DNA of 64,000 bases, from the NCBI RefSeq assembly GCF_002288105.1, contig NZ_CP016774.1:310001-374000 (forward strand). The letters are read 5' to 3'. Below are positions 42,762 through 50,786 of this stretch, in pieces. The notes under the pieces were generated by a model, which was not told where the DNA came from, did no database searches, and worked only from the letters and a program-made list of their open reading frames with translations. How positions within the stretch are numbered: the stretch's first letter is position 1; the number at the start of each line of letters is the position of its first letter. A program made the translations under genes and the position numbers. This DNA is from Candidatus Planktophila versatilis (GTDB taxonomy: Bacteria; Actinomycetota; Actinomycetes; Nanopelagicales; Nanopelagicaceae).

Positions 42762-44858
42762 TTGGGGGGCGCGGTGTGGGTGGGGGCGCTTGCGCAGAGT
42801 TGGAGTCCAACCTGGGTAGTGGCAGCTATTGCTGTGATTGCCGCAGTTATTTTATTTAACAAGCGGCGTTTGGCAGTTCTACTTATCGCCATTGTGCTGG
42901 GTGCAACGATTATGTCGATAAGAATTGCTGCCCTTGATTCCAGTGCGATAAACCAATTCCGGGGCGCGATTACATCTGTTGAACTACAGGTAACGACAGA
43001 CCCTAATCGAGTGGTTCCAAAAGTATTTGGTAGCTCCTTTGCACCTATCTCTTACTCATTTATGGGCCAAGCGCTCCGAGTTGATGATAGATATTCCATG
43101 CGCATCCCAGCGCGCGTCATTGTTTCTAATAAAAGCGTGGAAAGCTTGTTGCCCGGTCAGAAGATTCGGGTGCAGGCTAAAGTGTTGGAGAGTAAAGAGG
43201 GACGAGTTGCAGCTCTACTGATTGTGAAGCAACGCGTTGAAGTACTCACTCAACCCTCGCGCTGGGCGAAAGGATTGGCGCGTATTCGCCTAGGACTGCG
43301 CAGTGCAACTGGCGGCGAAGATGCTGGTGCGCTCATTCCTGGAATGGTGATTGGCGATACTAGTAAGCAGAGCGTTGAGTTTAAGAACCAGATGCGCAGA
43401 TCTGGTCTTACCCACTTGGTGGCTGTCAGTGGTGCTAACTTCGCCATCGTTTCAGCCTTTGTTCTATGGGGCATGCAATTTGTTTTCCGCAAAGTTAATT
43501 ATCGCCTGATTGCAACTGCGATAGCACTGGCTGCATTTATCGCACTTGTGCGGCCATCACCTTCTGTCTTGCGCGCCGCAGCCATGGCTGCAGTTTTACT
43601 TGTTGCATTTGGCACCAGACAAGGGCGAGATCCGCTGCCGGCGTTGGGCTTTGCTATCGCAGCTGTAGTGATTTTAGATCCCTTTCAAGCACGCGATGCT
43701 GGTTTTGCTCTCTCTGTTTTAGCAACAGCTGGGTTATTACTTCTGGCACCGAAGATAAAACCGAAGTTCTTAGCACCCCCCATTGCAGCGATGGCTTTTT
43801 GTGCGCCAGTCATTGTGGCTTTATCTGGATACATCAGCCCCATGAGCATCATTGCCAATGTCTTAGCTGCACCCGCCGTTGCTCCCATCACCATTGTTGG
43901 ATTCATGGCCGCCCTTATCTCACCCTTTGCACCCTGGCTTTCGCATCTTCTTATTCTGTGCGTGAAGCCACTTGCGATCTGGATTGTCTGGGTTGCATCC
44001 TGGAGTGCCGGTTTTCCAGTCTTCACCTTAAAGACTGGGCTCTATGGATTCCTCATTGTGGCCGTTCTCATTCTTGCTATCTATCTCGGTCGAGCGAAGG
44101 TCGCAATCGCGCTACTCATCGTTGTTATTACCTTTTCCTGGGCGCAGCGATTTCCGGCAGGGGATTGGCAGATTGCTAATTGCGATATTGGCCAAGGTGA
44201 TGCGATGGTGATTAATTTGAAGCACCACCGCGCAATAGTTATTGATGTGGGCCCTGATCCACAATTAATTGATAGGTGTTTGCGCCAGCTTGGAGTACGT
44301 GAGATTCCGCTCTTGATATTGACCCATATCCACGCGGATCATGTGGGTGGATTGGCGGGTGCGGGAAAGAATAGAAAGATCGGAACAACTTGGTATGGAG
44401 ATGTATTTGCTGGCACCCGAGCCACAATTGAAGATGTGAAGATAGAGGTGAAGTGGCCTGATCGCGCGGGTGAATACACGCCAAATAACTCCAGCATTGC
44501 GGTGCTCTTTACTTCACCAGATTTCACACTCTTTGCCGCCGGTGATATTGAACCGCCGGTGCAGAGCCAACTGGTCTCACACATTGGCGAAGTAGATATC
44601 TATAAAGTGGCCCATCATGGTTCTCGCTATCAAGATCTCACCTTGATGCGAGAACTCTCACCGCAGATTGCAGTCATCAGCGTAGGCGCAACTAATACCT
44701 ATGGACATCCTGCACCTGCCACCATCTCGGCCTTGACGCAGTTAGGCGCTAAGGTATTGCGTACGGATATTGATGGGGCAGTAGCAATCAAAGCAACAAA
44801 CCATCAATTTTCACTACAACGCAGCAAGCGCTGGTTTAGATTTTTCTCTTGGAGCTAG
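42762..44858 (+). CDS. comEC: ComEC/Rec2 DNA-uptake channel
   Basis: A 698-residue membrane protein. An N-terminal DUF4131-type region and the multi-helix competence domain (HLVAVSGANFAIVSAFVLW, RPSPSVLRAAAMAAVLL) precede a C-terminal metallo-beta-lactamase domain with LTHIHADHVGGLAG and KVAHHGSRYQD, whose metal ligands look intact. It carries single-stranded DNA across the membrane. The start is uncertain: TTG at 42762 is the first standard start, but the frame stays open upstream, overlapping comEA, with an ATT at 42741 as another candidate. Confidence 0.92.
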   Translation: MGGAVWVGALAQSWSPTWVVAAIAVIAAVILFNKRRLAVLLIAIVLGATIMSIRIAALDSSAINQFRGAITSVELQVTTDPNRVVPKVFGSSFAPISYSFMGQALRVDDRYSMRIPARVIVSNKSVESLLPGQKIRVQAKVLESKEGRVAALLIVKQRVEVLTQPSRWAKGLARIRLGLRSATGGEDAGALIPGMVIGDTSKQSVEFKNQMRRSGLTHLVAVSGANFAIVSAFVLWGMQFVFRKVNYRLIATAIALAAFIALVRPSPSVLRAAAMAAVLLVAFGTRQGRDPLPALGFAIAAVVILDPFQARDAGFALSVLATAGLLLLAPKIKPKFLAPPIAAMAFCAPVIVALSGYISPMSIIANVLAAPAVAPITIVGFMAALISPFAPWLSHLLILCVKPLAIWIVWVASWSAGFPVFTLKTGLYGFLIVAVLILAIYLGRAKVAIALLIVVITFSWAQRFPAGDWQIANCDIGQGDAMVINLKHHRAIVIDVGPDPQLIDRCLRQLGVREIPLLILTHIHADHVGGLAGAGKNRKIGTTWYGDVFAGTRATIEDVKIEVKWPDRAGEYTPNNSSIAVLFTSPDFTLFAAGDIEPPVQSQLVSHIGEVDIYKVAHHGSRYQDLTLMRELSPQIAVISVGATNTYGHPAPATISALTQLGAKVLRTDIDGAVAIKATNHQFSLQRSKRWFRFFSWS

Positions 44859-46241: not shown

Positions 46242-48122
46242 GTGCCTGCAATATCCATTGCGAAGGCGCCGCAACCAGCAGCAACTAATCCAGCGCAGAT
46301 CCGAAATTTCTGCATCATTGCCCATATCGATCACGGTAAATCAACGTTGGCCGATCGCATGCTCCAAATTACCGAGGTAGTAGAAGCACGCAATATGCGG
46401 GCACAGTATCTAGACCGGATGGATATCGAACGTGAACGCGGCATCACCATTAAATCCCAAGCAGTTCGCTTGCCCTGGCGCAGCGCACTTGATGGCCAGG
46501 AATACATCCTGAACATGATTGACACTCCAGGTCACGTGGACTTCACCTATGAAGTTTCTCGTTCTCTTGCTGCCTGTGAAGGTGCGGTGCTGCTCGTGGA
46601 TTGCGCGCAAGGTATCGAAGCACAAACGCTGGCAAACCTTTACCTAGCGATGGAAAATAACCTCACCATTATTCCGGTGCTTAACAAGATTGATCTACCT
46701 AATGCGCAACCAGAGAAGTTTGCGGCAGAACTTGCTGGCCTGATTGGTTGCAAAGTAGAAGATGTATTGCGCGTTTCTGGAAAGACGGGCGATGGCGTTG
46801 CCGATCTTCTTGATCAAATCATTGCTCAAATTCCGGCACCTGTGGGAGATCCAGATGCTCCAGCGCGCGCACTGATCTTTGATTCTGTCTATGACTCATA
46901 TCGAGGTGTTGTTACTTATGTTCGCGTTGTCGATGGACACATTAAGCCGCGCGAGCAGATTCAAATGTTTTCTACTGGTGTTAAACATGAGGCACTAGAG
47001 GTAGGCGTGATTTCACCAGAACCGTTGCCATCTAAGGGTCTGGGTGTGGGCGAGGTGGGATATTTAATTACTGGCGTAAAAGATGTGCGCCAATCACGTG
47101 TGGGTGACACGATTACTAATTTTGTGCGGCCAACGAAAGATCCACTGGGTGGTTATAAAGATCCGAAACCCATGGTCTTCTCTGGTCTCTTCCCACTTGA
47201 TGGCGCAGATTTTCCAGTGCTGCGAGATGCGTTAGAGAAATTACAACTCAACGATGCCGCCCTGGTCTATGAACCAGAGAGTTCTGCCGCTCTCGGCTTT
47301 GGTTTCCGTTGCGGCTTCCTTGGCCTATTGCATATGGAAATTGTGCGCGAACGTTTAGAGCGTGAAGCAAAACTGAATCTTATTTCAACGGCGCCAAACG
47401 TGGTCTATCGCGTGACAATGGAAGATGGCAAAGAGTTTGTTGTGACCAATCCTTCTGAATTTCCTGATGGCAAGATCAATAGCGTGAAAGAGCCAATTGT
47501 GAAGTCAACGATTCTGGCACCGGCTGAATTTATTGGCGCCATCATGGAGCTCTGCCAAGAGCGCCGTGGCGTCTTGCTCGGTATGGATTACATCTCAGAA
47601 GACCGGGTTGAGATTCGTTATACCTTGCCCCTTGCTGAAATCGTCTTTGACTTCTTTGATCAACTAAAGAGTCGCACACGAGGCTATGCCTCCCTTGATT
47701 ATGAAGAGCTCGGTGATGAAGAAGGTAACTTGGTCAAGGTCGATATCTTGTTACAAGGTGAGGCAGTTGATGCTTTTAGCGCCATTGTTCACCGCGATAA
47801 GGCCTACTCCTATGGTGTGATGATGACCGGCAAATTACGCGAACTCATTCCACGTCAGCAATTTGAAGTTCCTATTCAGGCAGCGATTGGCTCTCGCATT
47901 ATTGCCCGTGAATCTATTCGTGCGATCCGTAAAGATGTTCTGGCAAAGTGTTATGGCGGAGATATTTCACGTAAGCGCAAACTTCTGGAGAAGCAGAAGG
48001 AAGGTAAGAAGCGGATGAAGATGGTGGGACGCGTTGAAGTTCCACAGGAAGCCTTCGTCGCTGCCCTTGCCACCGATGCTGATATCGCCAAGATTAAAGC
48101 AGCGCGCAAGCTCGAATCCTAA
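46242..48122 (+). CDS. lepA: Elongation factor 4 (LepA)
   Basis: A 626-residue GTPase with P loop [15 protein letters not shown], switch [33 protein letters not shown], and the LepA-specific C-terminal domain ([20 protein letters not shown]). It back-translocates or rescues stalled ribosomes. The start is GTG with an AAAGG site upstream. The hemW gene once followed 1-4 nt after its stop. That junction now holds only a truncated hemW copy. Confidence 0.95.
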
Positions 48123-48126
48123 AGTG

Positions 48127-48255
48127 ATGCTTTCGTTCTACGTTCATATTCCCTACTGCGTAAGACGCTGCGGGTATTGCGACTTTATTTCACACACAAG
48201 AGAGATAGATGCGAAACGATACGAGTATGAACACAGTTCTTGTAAAGAAAGCTGA
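48127..48255 (+). pseudogene. Truncated 5' fragment of hemW left by an insertion
   Basis: Right after lepA the first 20 residues of HemW (MLSFYVHIPYCVRRCGYCDF) are encoded, including all three radical-SAM cysteines. After codon 20 the frame leaves the family and stops at 48255. A full hemW lies 1.5 kb downstream. The 56 aligned bases of the two 5' ends (48130-48185 and 49671-49726) differ at six positions, all synonymous, so they came from two functional hemW alleles rather than a fresh duplication. Confidence 0.85.
48166..48185 (+). repeat. 20-bp direct repeat, left copy (hemW codons)
   Basis: Identical to 49707-49726, CGCTGCGGG...GACTT. It marks the left edge of the inserted segment; sequence similarity stops at its right end. 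It could be a recombination or attachment site. Confidence 0.75.
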
Positions 48256-48287
48256 TACTTTTTTGCAGACAAATCTTAGGAGTGGGG

Positions 48288-48316
48288 CTGACAAATCCAA
48301 TAGGGCTGGGTACTCT
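48288..48316 (+). promoter_or_regulatory. Promoter of the inserted secreted-protein gene
   Basis: CTGACA (48288-48293) and TACTCT (48311-48316) with a 17-bp spacer. Transcription would begin at or 1 nt before the ATG at 48324, so the message is leaderless. The insert therefore brought its own promoter. Confidence 0.6.
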
Positions 48317-48323
48317 TACAGGC

Positions 48324-49553
48324 ATGAAGAAGAACTTTGTTTTATTTTTAGTCGTAACCTTTATAGCTGCGTCATTGGCACTGCCCGCAAGTGCCGCAGT
48401 CAAAACAGGGGCCAAGTGCGCAACGAAGGGCCAGACTATAAACTCGCAAGGCAAGAAGTTCACCTGTGTTAAAACAGGCAAAAAATTACTTTGGGCACAA
48501 ATTATAGTCGAGACAAAATCTACTCCCACACCAAAACCAAGCATCTCACCGTTGTACTACCAGCCAAAAGTTGGTGATTGCTTTAACTATGGCTGGGATC
48601 AAGCGATGTTTAAAAATGTTTCCGACCAACCGGTAAATTGCCAACTGTCACATACGGCGGAAACATATAGGGTGCAGGTTTGGAGTTCTCCTATTGATGT
48701 GTATCAGGATACGGATGAAAATGTTCTTGCCGTTGCAAAAAGTATATGTGAACCGATGTCGTACAAGCCATCTACATCTATAACTCAAAATTATTTCATT
48801 TTTAGCTTTCCATCTGAGCCGCAGTGGAACTTGGGAAATAAGTGGGTGCGTTGTGATGCTGTAATCTTGAATCAAAGTGGAAAGGTTCCCAATTTAATTT
48901 CTTGGCAAGGGGAGCCGCCAGTAAGACAAGATGTTCCAGCCACATGCACTGTTGAATCTTCAAAAAGTAATTCTTGGACTCGCACATATGAGGAAGAAAC
49001 TACCATTCAAAGGAAAATGGGCTTTTATGTCAGGAATAGCTCTCCCGATCGAGACGCAACCTTAGTTTTAATCACTGCAAATTTGCGCTACACCGATGGA
49101 ACGTCAGAGGATGTTTTGCTTGAAATTAGTAGAATTCCGGCGGGACAGTTAGTGGGAATCGGGAAAGATTTTGAATCGAAAGAACTTTCTGGCTGGTCTT
49201 ACAAAATTAAGTGCAACGACAGCCCTAGGGGTTCTACAGCAAAACTGATTGAATTGACTGCTCCTGTGGTTAAGGATGAAGGTAGCGATCGATACTCTTT
49301 ACGCTATTCAGCTCAGGCCACTAATCTTTACCCTGATGTTATTCGATGCAAGAACGACAACTACAGCTGCATGGTTTATATTTTATTTTTGGATCCCTAT
49401 GATGCAATCGTGGGCGGGGACACCATTTTCATTAATGGACCCATTTATCCGAATCAATCTTTCAAGGTTGAGGGATCCATCTATTATCCAAAGAGTTGGC
49501 ACCCAGAACGACTATCATCAGTGAAAATGTGGATTCAAGAACCGCAGTCCTAA
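48324..49553 (+). CDS. Secreted protein with septum-formation-like domain, inserted cargo gene
   Basis: A 409-residue exported protein. A Sec signal peptide (MKKNFVLFLVVTFIAASLAL then PASA) is followed by a short Cys/Gly/Lys motif (KTGAKCATKGQTINSQGKKF and TCVKTGKKLLW), a Pro-Thr linker, then a region resembling septum-formation-family domains (VGDCFNYGWDQ...VNCQLSHTAETYRV). The C-terminal 230 residues hold paired Cys but match nothing I recognise. Base composition is lower in G+C than neighbours (21 of 60 in 48781-48840). It is the only gene between the hemW fragment and intact hemW. Confidence 0.75.
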   Translation: MKKNFVLFLVVTFIAASLALPASAAVKTGAKCATKGQTINSQGKKFTCVKTGKKLLWAQIIVETKSTPTPKPSISPLYYQPKVGDCFNYGWDQAMFKNVSDQPVNCQLSHTAETYRVQVWSSPIDVYQDTDENVLAVAKSICEPMSYKPSTSITQNYFIFSFPSEPQWNLGNKWVRCDAVILNQSGKVPNLISWQGEPPVRQDVPATCTVESSKSNSWTRTYEEETTIQRKMGFYVRNSSPDRDATLVLITANLRYTDGTSEDVLLEISRIPAGQLVGIGKDFESKELSGWSYKIKCNDSPRGSTAKLIELTAPVVKDEGSDRYSLRYSAQATNLYPDVIRCKNDNYSCMVYILFLDPYDAIVGGDTIFINGPIYPNQSFKVEGSIYYPKSWHPERLSSVKMWIQEPQS

Positions 49554-49652
49554 TTGAACTCATGTGAGAGCACGCACTATTTATGGTGCAGACTGATTTA
49601 AGTCTATGAACTTGGACAGTGCTCCAGATTTTGCTTTTACGAGGAAGATGAG

Positions 49653-50786
49653 ATGATGACCATGATGCATCTTTCATTTTACGTCCATATTCCCTATTGC
49701 GTTAGGCGCTGCGGGTATTGCGACTTCAATACCTACACACCATCAGAGCTCCAAGATGGGGCAACGCTAGAAATAGTCTCCGGTGATTACATCGATGCCG
49801 TGCTCAAAGAATTGGCAGCAGCCCCACGAGATGAAGTGCCGACAATCTTCTTTGGTGGCGGAACTCCATCACTGCTACCACCGAAAGATTTAGGCCGGGT
49901 TATTACCGCGATTAAAGAGCGTAATGGCCTCACCGAAGATTGTGAGATTACCCTTGAGGCAAATCCAGATTCAGTGACGCAAGAAAAGTTGGATCAGCTG
50001 ATTGCTGCAGGATTTAATCGCATCTCCTTCGGTATGCAATCATCTAATCCAGAAGTGTTAAAAGTTCTAGATCGCACCCACAATCCGGAGAATGTTCGCA
50101 AGGCTGTTGATATGGCGCGCGCAGCAGGATTTTCTTCCGTTTCAGTCGATCTGATTTATGGCAGCCCCAGAGAGTCATTGGCTGATTGGGCAGCAACTAT
50201 CAAAGAAGCGCTCTCGCTTGATATCGACCACATCAGTGCTTACGCACTCATTGTGGAAGAAGGCACAAAGTTAGCTGCCCAGATTAAACGCGGTGAATAC
50301 ACCATGCCTGATGATGATTTGATGGCTGATATGTATTTACTTATTGATCAACAGTGCTTACAAAAAGGTTTGAAGTGGTATGAACTTTCAAATTGGTCAA
50401 AGCCTGGCCATCAATGTCGACACAATATTGCGTACTGGAAATCCAATAACTGGTGGGGACTTGGCCCAGGTGCACATTCTCATATTGATAGTAAACGATT
50501 CTGGAATGTGAAACATCCAAATGCTTATAAAGAGAAGGTCTTTGCCGGTGATTCACCAATTAAAGATTCGGAAATGTTAACTGATGATCAGAGAAAATCT
50601 GAATACATCATGCTCGCACTTCGCATGCCAGAAGGTGTGAAGAAGGCAGCACTGACTGTGGCGCAATACGAGCGCACGATGGAGTACATCAAGAGCGGGC
50701 ATGTGATTGAAAAGCACGATGCGCTGGCGCTGACCCCGACAGGTCGCTTGATTGCCGACCGCCTGACACATGAAATGCTCCGCTAA
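49653..50786 (+). CDS. hemW: HemW, radical SAM heme chaperone
   Basis: A 377-residue radical SAM protein of full family length. The iron-sulfur motif is Cys-x3-Cys-x2-Cys in PYCVRRCGYCDFNTY, followed by FFGGGTPSLL, ISFGMQSSNPEVLKVLDRTH, and the C-terminal HemN-type YWKSNNWWGLGPGAHSH. It supplies heme to target proteins; it is often misnamed coproporphyrinogen oxidase. The GAGGAAG site favours ATG at 49653 or 49656. The start region (MMTMMHL) differs from the fragment after lepA (ML), showing a replaced 5' end. Confidence 0.92.
   Translation: MMTMMHLSFYVHIPYCVRRCGYCDFNTYTPSELQDGATLEIVSGDYIDAVLKELAAAPRDEVPTIFFGGGTPSLLPPKDLGRVITAIKERNGLTEDCEITLEANPDSVTQEKLDQLIAAGFNRISFGMQSSNPEVLKVLDRTHNPENVRKAVDMARAAGFSSVSVDLIYGSPRESLADWAATIKEALSLDIDHISAYALIVEEGTKLAAQIKRGEYTMPDDDLMADMYLLIDQQCLQKGLKWYELSNWSKPGHQCRHNIAYWKSNNWWGLGPGAHSHIDSKRFWNVKHPNAYKEKVFAGDSPIKDSEMLTDDQRKSEYIMLALRMPEGVKKAALTVAQYERTMEYIKSGHVIEKHDALALTPTGRLIADRLTHEMLR
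49707..49726 (+). repeat. 20-bp direct repeat, right copy (hemW codons)
   Basis: Identical to 48166-48185, 1541 bp away. Together with the 36 bp of diverged hemW sequence before each copy it brackets the inserted gene. Confidence 0.75.

Follow-up and report, generated by a model that had tools for sequence, protein, structure and literature searches.

Integration of SXT/R391 elements, which are large and conjugative, into prfC replaces the 5' end of this coding gene. To our knowledge, few mobile elements are known in acI bacteria. These bacteria are among the commonest in lakes (PMC10202952). The dusA-associated islands and prophages use semiconserved sites of 21 bp in the 5' portion of a conserved housekeeping gene; the element supplies a new 5' end, with putative promoters before and after it, while the original 5' end persists (Farrugia et al. 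2015, PMC4482086). The present analysis concerns a window of 64,000 nucleotides (nt), bases 310001-374000 of the 1.33-Mb single-contig genome of Candidatus Planktophila versatilis (estimated completeness 100%), in which a short islet with one cargo gene lies between lepA and a complete hemW gene, and a second, truncated hemW start stands behind lepA. The best explanation, which we hold to be quite probable on the alignments given below, is that the islet is an integrase-less derivative of small phages for which the 5' end of hemW is the attachment site and which restore the gene.

The hemW islets share with the dusA islands the supply of a new 5' coding sequence for the target gene and the persistence of the old 5' end; they differ in the target, in their size of 0.8-2.4 kb and in the absence of an integrase. 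This comparison was made by description, and the dusA islands are the closest precedent. The SXT/R391 elements, likewise compared by description, are similar in 5'-end replacement and dissimilar in being large and conjugative. Tycheposons resemble the islets as cargo elements of streamlined plankton, but they are described as measuring 4-200 kb and bordering a tRNA gene (PMC10872708). The kind of element is already known; new are the target gene hemW, the hosts, the small phages and the integrase-less islets. No report of hemW as an attachment site was found in the open-access literature searched. The terms 'integrase' and 'attachment site' are absent from the text of a freshwater phage survey (PMC6802176), and the main text of the paper on the first isolated acI phages mentions no integrase, lysogen, temperate, attP or hemW.

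Genomes are designated by G-numbers, and loci or viral contigs by L-numbers; G000 is the genome of the window. The following features, all on the forward strand, were assigned (positions within the window).

46242..48122, + strand: lepA, the gene upstream of the putative attachment site; passes its own NCBIfam cut-off
48124..48185, + strand: displaced native hemW 5' end (putative attL side); start GTG 48124 or ATG 48127; homology to hemW stops after 48185
48166..48185, + strand: left copy of the identical 20-bp core; codons of the RCGYCD part of the radical-SAM cysteine motif
48206..48306, + strand: islet left arm, the stretch aligning with the left arms of islets G028 and G105
48327..49553, + strand: cargo gene, 408 amino acids (aa) from ATG 48327 (start chosen by us; open frame from GTG 48282); exported-looking
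49554..49652, + strand: islet right arm, upstream of the new hemW start; no match among other right arms
49653..49706, + strand: islet-borne hemW 5' end with an extended start (MMTMMHLSFYVHIPYCVR)
49707..49726, + strand: right copy of the 20-bp core (putative attR side), identical to 48166-48185
49653..50786, + strand: complete hemW, 377 aa; start different from the native one and longer

The two hemW starts form a direct repeat of 69 nt (84%, copies 1,541 bp apart), the sole direct repeat of at least 16 nt reported in 47900-50000. The duplicated start was recovered in a genome-wide HemW search with an E-value of 3.2e-9 and is not due to chance. Complete hemW exceeded the NCBIfam HemW cut-off (TIGR00539, 294 versus 205 bits). 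A first-pass annotation, made from the window sequence alone, had described lepA, a hemW start, an exported-protein gene and a complete hemW with a different start; this layout is seen at 48122-50786. The annotated agreement of the two starts can be read off the sequence: they share 50 of 56 bases, each of the six differences is synonymous, and no difference falls in the final 20 bases. The insert had also been called low in G+C, which holds in direction, the difference being small (0.42 versus 0.45 in the 1,000 bases downstream). Non-coding stretches flank the cargo gene on both sides, and the promoter of its own that had been assigned to it was not recovered: a consensus scan yielded two sites, both within the gene, with 3.2 expected from shuffles, though CTGACA-17-TACTCT-7-ATG is readable by eye upstream of 48327. 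No known RNA element was matched in 48000-50000 at the Rfam gathering score, and a DNA hairpin at the left core was rejected (z 0.56). No integrase is found among the genes of the islet, as had been noted, and the three PF00589 genes of the genome are located elsewhere; because the integrase is absent, the islet, although it works like a site-specific element of the tyrosine-recombinase type, is at most a dependent or decayed member of that class. The third tyrosine recombinase of the genome (401 aa, G000:C1:135541-136092, L156) lies outside the window and was considered a possible helper.

HemW was searched in 135 genomes of the genus. A match was obtained in 113, and the lepA-hemW site was readable in 105 and unreadable in 30. 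Among the readable genomes 87 were empty and 18 occupied, which marks the site as a hotspot. At empty sites 5-27 nt separate the end of the lepA match from hemW codon 7. Three loci (L144, L145 and L146, in G105, G028 and G056) were removed from 90 'empty' rows because the hemW match was a fragment at or near a contig end, and the occupied count comprises 15 rows plus G028, G105 and G121, which were added by reading the loci; the G121 contig is without lepA, the G105 locus is on two contigs, and the lepA end of G028 is on another contig. In other genera of the family, 34 of 40 loci, chosen among the matches listed, were empty and six occupied. The annotation had asked for relatives in which hemW directly follows lepA, and for different cargo at this site; both exist: the 87 empty genomes include G134 of the same species, and the cargo differs among the 18 occupied ones. 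An old fixed structure common to all relatives is thereby rejected.

Occupied sites fall into two classes. In class A (G000, G083, G050, G028, G105 and, from another genus, G156) the native fragment is kept behind lepA; class B, with lepA, cargo and hemW and no fragment, is represented in the genus by 12 loci that have both genes on a single contig and by G121, where hemW alone is present; another five come from other genera. On a hemW tree built beyond codon 35, occupancy required 16 changes among 101 labelled rows, and the five fragment-bearing islets of the genus represent five changes; this was a quick tree with open forks, on which change counts do not separate gain from loss. Both counts were the same whether G087, G125 and G093 were labelled empty or left unlabelled. 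An assembly artefact, or a local tandem duplication of the hemW 5' end with later insertion of a gene, would find some support in the two of five fragment-bearing cases of the genus (G028, G105) that involve contig ends. We consider it very improbable: the window genome is a single contig with an estimated completeness of 100%, six synonymous differences separate the two copies, whose closest sequences are not the same, and G000, G083 and G050 each carry lepA, fragment and hemW on one contig.

The place of exchange was determined by comparing the fragment and the full copy of an islet genome with empty relatives upstream of, in and downstream of the core. For G000, compared with G134, G095 and G021 in this order, the fragment agreed upstream at 37, 36 and 38 of 39 positions and the full copy at 30, 29 and 29; the core codons were identical throughout (18/18 in all); downstream, the full copy agreed at 59, 58 and 57 of 60 positions and the fragment at 20, 22 and 22. 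The exchange was therefore placed inside the 20-bp core, since the fragment matches native sequence upstream and the full copy matches it downstream. The claim that the incoming segment carried its own hemW 5' end is thus supported, the fragment being native and the full copy diverged from native relatives upstream of the core. In G083, G050 and G105 the pattern has the same direction with smaller contrasts. The element-borne starts of G083 and G050 agree at 37/39 positions, with 33/39 for the displaced starts and 75% for the hemW bodies; the corresponding values are 35/39, 32/39 and 67% for G083 and G028, and 34/39, 31/39 and 70% for G050 and G028. Judged by these alignments, the new hemW start is one that travels with the element.

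The identical 20 bp had been suggested as a crossover or attachment site. That they bracket the exchange is confirmed; the footprint as such is the one that a single crossover between the 56-bp homologues gives as well. A RecA-dependent single crossover of circular DNA, or uptake of donor DNA, could act through hemW homology without a site-specific recombinase. Uptake is conceivable because a comEC-like gene lies upstream of the hemW locus at 42762-44858; its product matches ComEC models above the cut-off of the N-terminal domain model and below that of the ComEC/Rec2 equivalog. Homologous recombination leaves unexplained, however, that in five separate lineages the fragment breaks off near the same codons, and likewise the viral sequences described next, so that we regard it as improbable. 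An attachment site is the best explanation of the core because an integrase adjoins the same hemW start on seven viral contigs.

These contigs came from a search of 2.9 million viral contigs in which 12 aligned HemW N-termini served as the query. The pattern was matched by 35 stretches, and seven contigs (L201-L207) encode a HemW relative. In the stretches examined, HemW was limited to the first 33 residues at most, and lepA was matched in none. A tyrosine integrase of 258-267 aa, pointing away, starts about 100 nt upstream of the hemW piece in all seven contigs; that of L204, the sole one scored, matched PF00589 with an E-value of 1e-16. A search with an integrase alignment retrieved the same seven contigs and one 25% match. 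In the six of these seven contigs that were examined, inverted repeats flank the hemW piece; they span, for instance, 13 nt with no mismatch in L203 and 35 nt at 80% in L201, and are shorter or less exact in L206. That seven viral contigs keep just this piece of hemW beside an integrase, and that inverted repeats such as the perfect 13-nt pair of L203 surround it, are the further facts that homologous recombination does not account for. No exact terminal repeat was present in the five contig stretches examined. In contig L221, eight of ten proteins matched PHROGs, among them major head, major tail, tape measure, connectors, integrase, transglycosylase and HNH proteins. L201-L205 and L207 have an in-frame ATG ten codons upstream of the conserved leucine and, by eye, TATTGT six bases before the ATG, which would be a candidate leaderless promoter.

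On the preferred explanation, the codons for the HemW cysteine motif would serve as the chromosomal attachment site (attB). Small tailed phages of these hosts would carry a matching site (attP) made up of a hemW start, its first ~26 conserved codons and arm repeats, with the short tyrosine integrase adjoining. Integration at the common core would displace the host hemW start, leaving it as a fragment behind lepA, and would place the start of the element before the rest of hemW; the gene would stay whole because the element supplies a replacement start. The integrase would act at the hemW site, the phages would be capable of lysogeny, and hemW would be expressed from the new start. The window islet would then be an integrase-less member of the phage-related family, carrying one gene for an exported protein, and would have entered by integration rather than by plain homologous recombination. 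The phages with the same hemW start beside an integrase suggest how such blocks may enter without breaking hemW.

Relationships between islets and phages were assessed from their arms, using z-scores of local alignments against shuffles (300 for left arms, 200 for right arms). The left ends of G083 and G050, including the hemW piece, match L203, L204 and L207 at 83-84% over 178-187 nt, and beyond the core their left arms reach z 29 and 35, respectively, against L203. When 296 genomes of the family were searched with the phage arm, trimmed so that only about 10 nt of the hemW piece remained, two places were matched, namely hemW in G083 and hemW in G050. The left arms of G028 and G105 resemble L206 (z 14.5 and 14.1), which makes four islets besides that of the window whose left arms are related to phage arms. 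The window left arm matches those of G028 (z 9.2) and G105 (z 8.0), with 0/300 shuffles as good in each case; by this left arm the window islet is linked to the phages only indirectly, one step removed. A search of 135 genomes with the G028 left arm retrieved G028 itself, G105, a weak match in G123 at another locus and a 24-nt match in G000. Of inverted repeats between the two arms of an islet, those of G028 stand out (2/200 shuffles as good); the values were 22/200 for G050, 128/200 for G105, 132/200 for G083 and 197/200 for G000.

The islets might, as a sub-case of the best explanation with which its odds overlap, be prophage leftovers at hemW that remained after near-total deletion and are now immobile; we give this somewhat less than an even chance. 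It accords with the small size of the fragment-bearing islets (those of known size span 0.8-2.4 kb) and with G050, whose single gene is a phage gene, oriented with respect to hemW as it is in the phage. This cargo is 76-81% identical to the gene adjoining the integrase in L201 or one gene away in L202, and 41-42% to the gene of L203, L204 and L207. The other three of four cargos compared have no match on phage contigs, which speaks against leftovers, as does the conservation of ends in G083 and G050: both have retained the left arm over about 110 nt past the core, along with right ends that resemble each other, although their internal genes are different. G083 and G028, moreover, have a HIRAN gene, the right end and the hemW start in common (84% over 877 nt), and the HIRAN cargo of G083 has no match among viral contigs. 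Locus L135 of G028 combines a left arm of G105 type with a HIRAN-like gene and right end of G083 type, and looks like a composite of two elements.

Right ends were compared for class B as well. That of G275 matched L203 (z 10.1), and those of G155 and G058 matched L202 (z 6.9 and 5.8), with 0/200 shuffles as good for each; G013 reached z 3.2, and the rest of the 24 right arms scored remained below z 5 against three phage references. In view of these three similarities to phage right arms, it is probable that some class B sites derive from the fragment-bearing type and have lost the left end. In L165 (G275), a minus-strand gene with a sub-threshold match to mannose-6-phosphate isomerase lies between lepA and hemW, and the hemW behind it has a phage-type start and right arm.

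Several results weigh against a phage origin through site-specific integration. Thirteen of the 18 occupied sites of the genus have no hemW fragment, a count that favours homologous recombination and fits prophage leftovers as well. G028 breaks the exchange pattern, its fragment agreeing upstream at 29/39 positions and its full copy at 32/39 in two of two comparisons, made with distant relatives. The window left arm is more weakly similar to L206 (z 4.3, 1/300 shuffles) and matches neither the other six phages (z -1.8 to 0.1) nor islets G083 and G050 (z 1.8 and -1.5); its right arm matches none of five references, and its cargo was not found on viral contigs. Among the right arms, those of G083, G050 and G028 are similar to one another (z 22-32) but only weakly to the phages (z 1.9-4.4); those of G105 and G000 show no phage match. 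Finally, in the 296 family genomes, many of them incomplete, no prophage at hemW was detected by its integrase, and the capsid protein gave three weak matches (25-26%).

Relatives of the phage integrase were found in 10 of these 296 genomes (E-value up to 1e-10), nine with 38-50% identity to it (L208-L215 and L217) and one as a 68% fragment (G184). In eight of the ten host loci (L208-L217) a tRNA-Val or tRNA-Lys gene lies within 150 nt of the integrase start, and none of the ten is at hemW within the up to 450 nt examined. Since eight of ten adjoin such genes, this integrase family seems ordinarily to target tRNA genes here, with hemW as a shift away from them.

In the hemW piece of the seven phages (20 codons, 21 pairs), synonymous divergence is high and nonsynonymous divergence low (pS 0.74, pN 0.05), so that the host protein sequence is preserved. 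The low pN fits selection for a working HemW after integration; repeated capture of pieces from hosts would give the same value. Between L203 and L204, which are 99.8% identical over 9 kb, 18 differences were counted in 9,075 aligned sites. Five of these differences, all synonymous, are in the 72-nt hemW piece (L203 10001-10072, L204 7555-7626), where 0.10 would be expected (P about 1e-7, Poisson; the region had been chosen in advance only in part). No difference occurs in the 288 nt beside the piece, and as many differences as in the piece are found in 21 of 3,006 overlapping 57-nt windows. Compared with hemW of retrieved loci, the pieces of L203, L204, L205 and L207 agree at 54-55 of 57 nt; for L201 and L202 the values are 47/57 and 49/57. 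This single pair suggests that phages swap the hemW piece with host hemW. Replacement of the piece as a whole block is not predicted by a fixed crossover and would not arise from fixed-site recombination alone, a point in favour of homologous recombination; recombination between phages would also explain L203 and L204.

A bolder version of the preferred explanation takes the islets for live minimal satellites. Each would consist of two att arms around one or two genes (0.8-2.4 kb in all), depend on hemW phages for mobilisation in trans, and shuttle exported proteins among streamlined freshwater bacteria; the phages would exchange the hemW piece of attP with each host, and the piece would so record where they have been. 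We regard this version as rather unlikely. Among 50,697 phage records, the first-ranked match to the hemW-phage integrase was the tyrosine integrase of the satellite phage Mulchroom (PMC10690885; 30.7% over 97%); the annotation of Mulchroom lists no tail genes, whereas contig L221 has them. No match to the L203 attP region was obtained in the same records. The fused capsid-protease head protein of the 17.4-kb Microbacterium phages Naby, BonaeVitae and Quaker is 33-35% identical over 98% to that of the hemW phage, the head protein alone being compared. With attP, attB, an integrase and many natural attL and attR sites, hemW would be a concrete attachment site; lysogeny and the phage-borne supply of genes in acI bacteria are therefore directly testable.

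The hemW gene at G084:C150:9367-10479 has an in-frame TGA, and that of L139 (G065) is split in two frames; both may be assembly errors. Cargo genes at the site include GH43-like (G113), SnoaL-like (G045) and HIRAN genes (G083 by Pfam, G028 by likeness to G083), besides exported-looking proteins, several with a common Cys-containing N-terminal segment. For the window cargo, Pfam gave only a sub-threshold Septum_form match, and its N-terminal Cys segment recurs in other proteins. Window positions 48327-48500 and the cargo of G025, G104, G123, G097 and G110 have in common a signal-peptide-like start and a Cys segment of about 50 residues, which by eye reads C...TC.K.GKKLxW; the remainder of these proteins is quite different.

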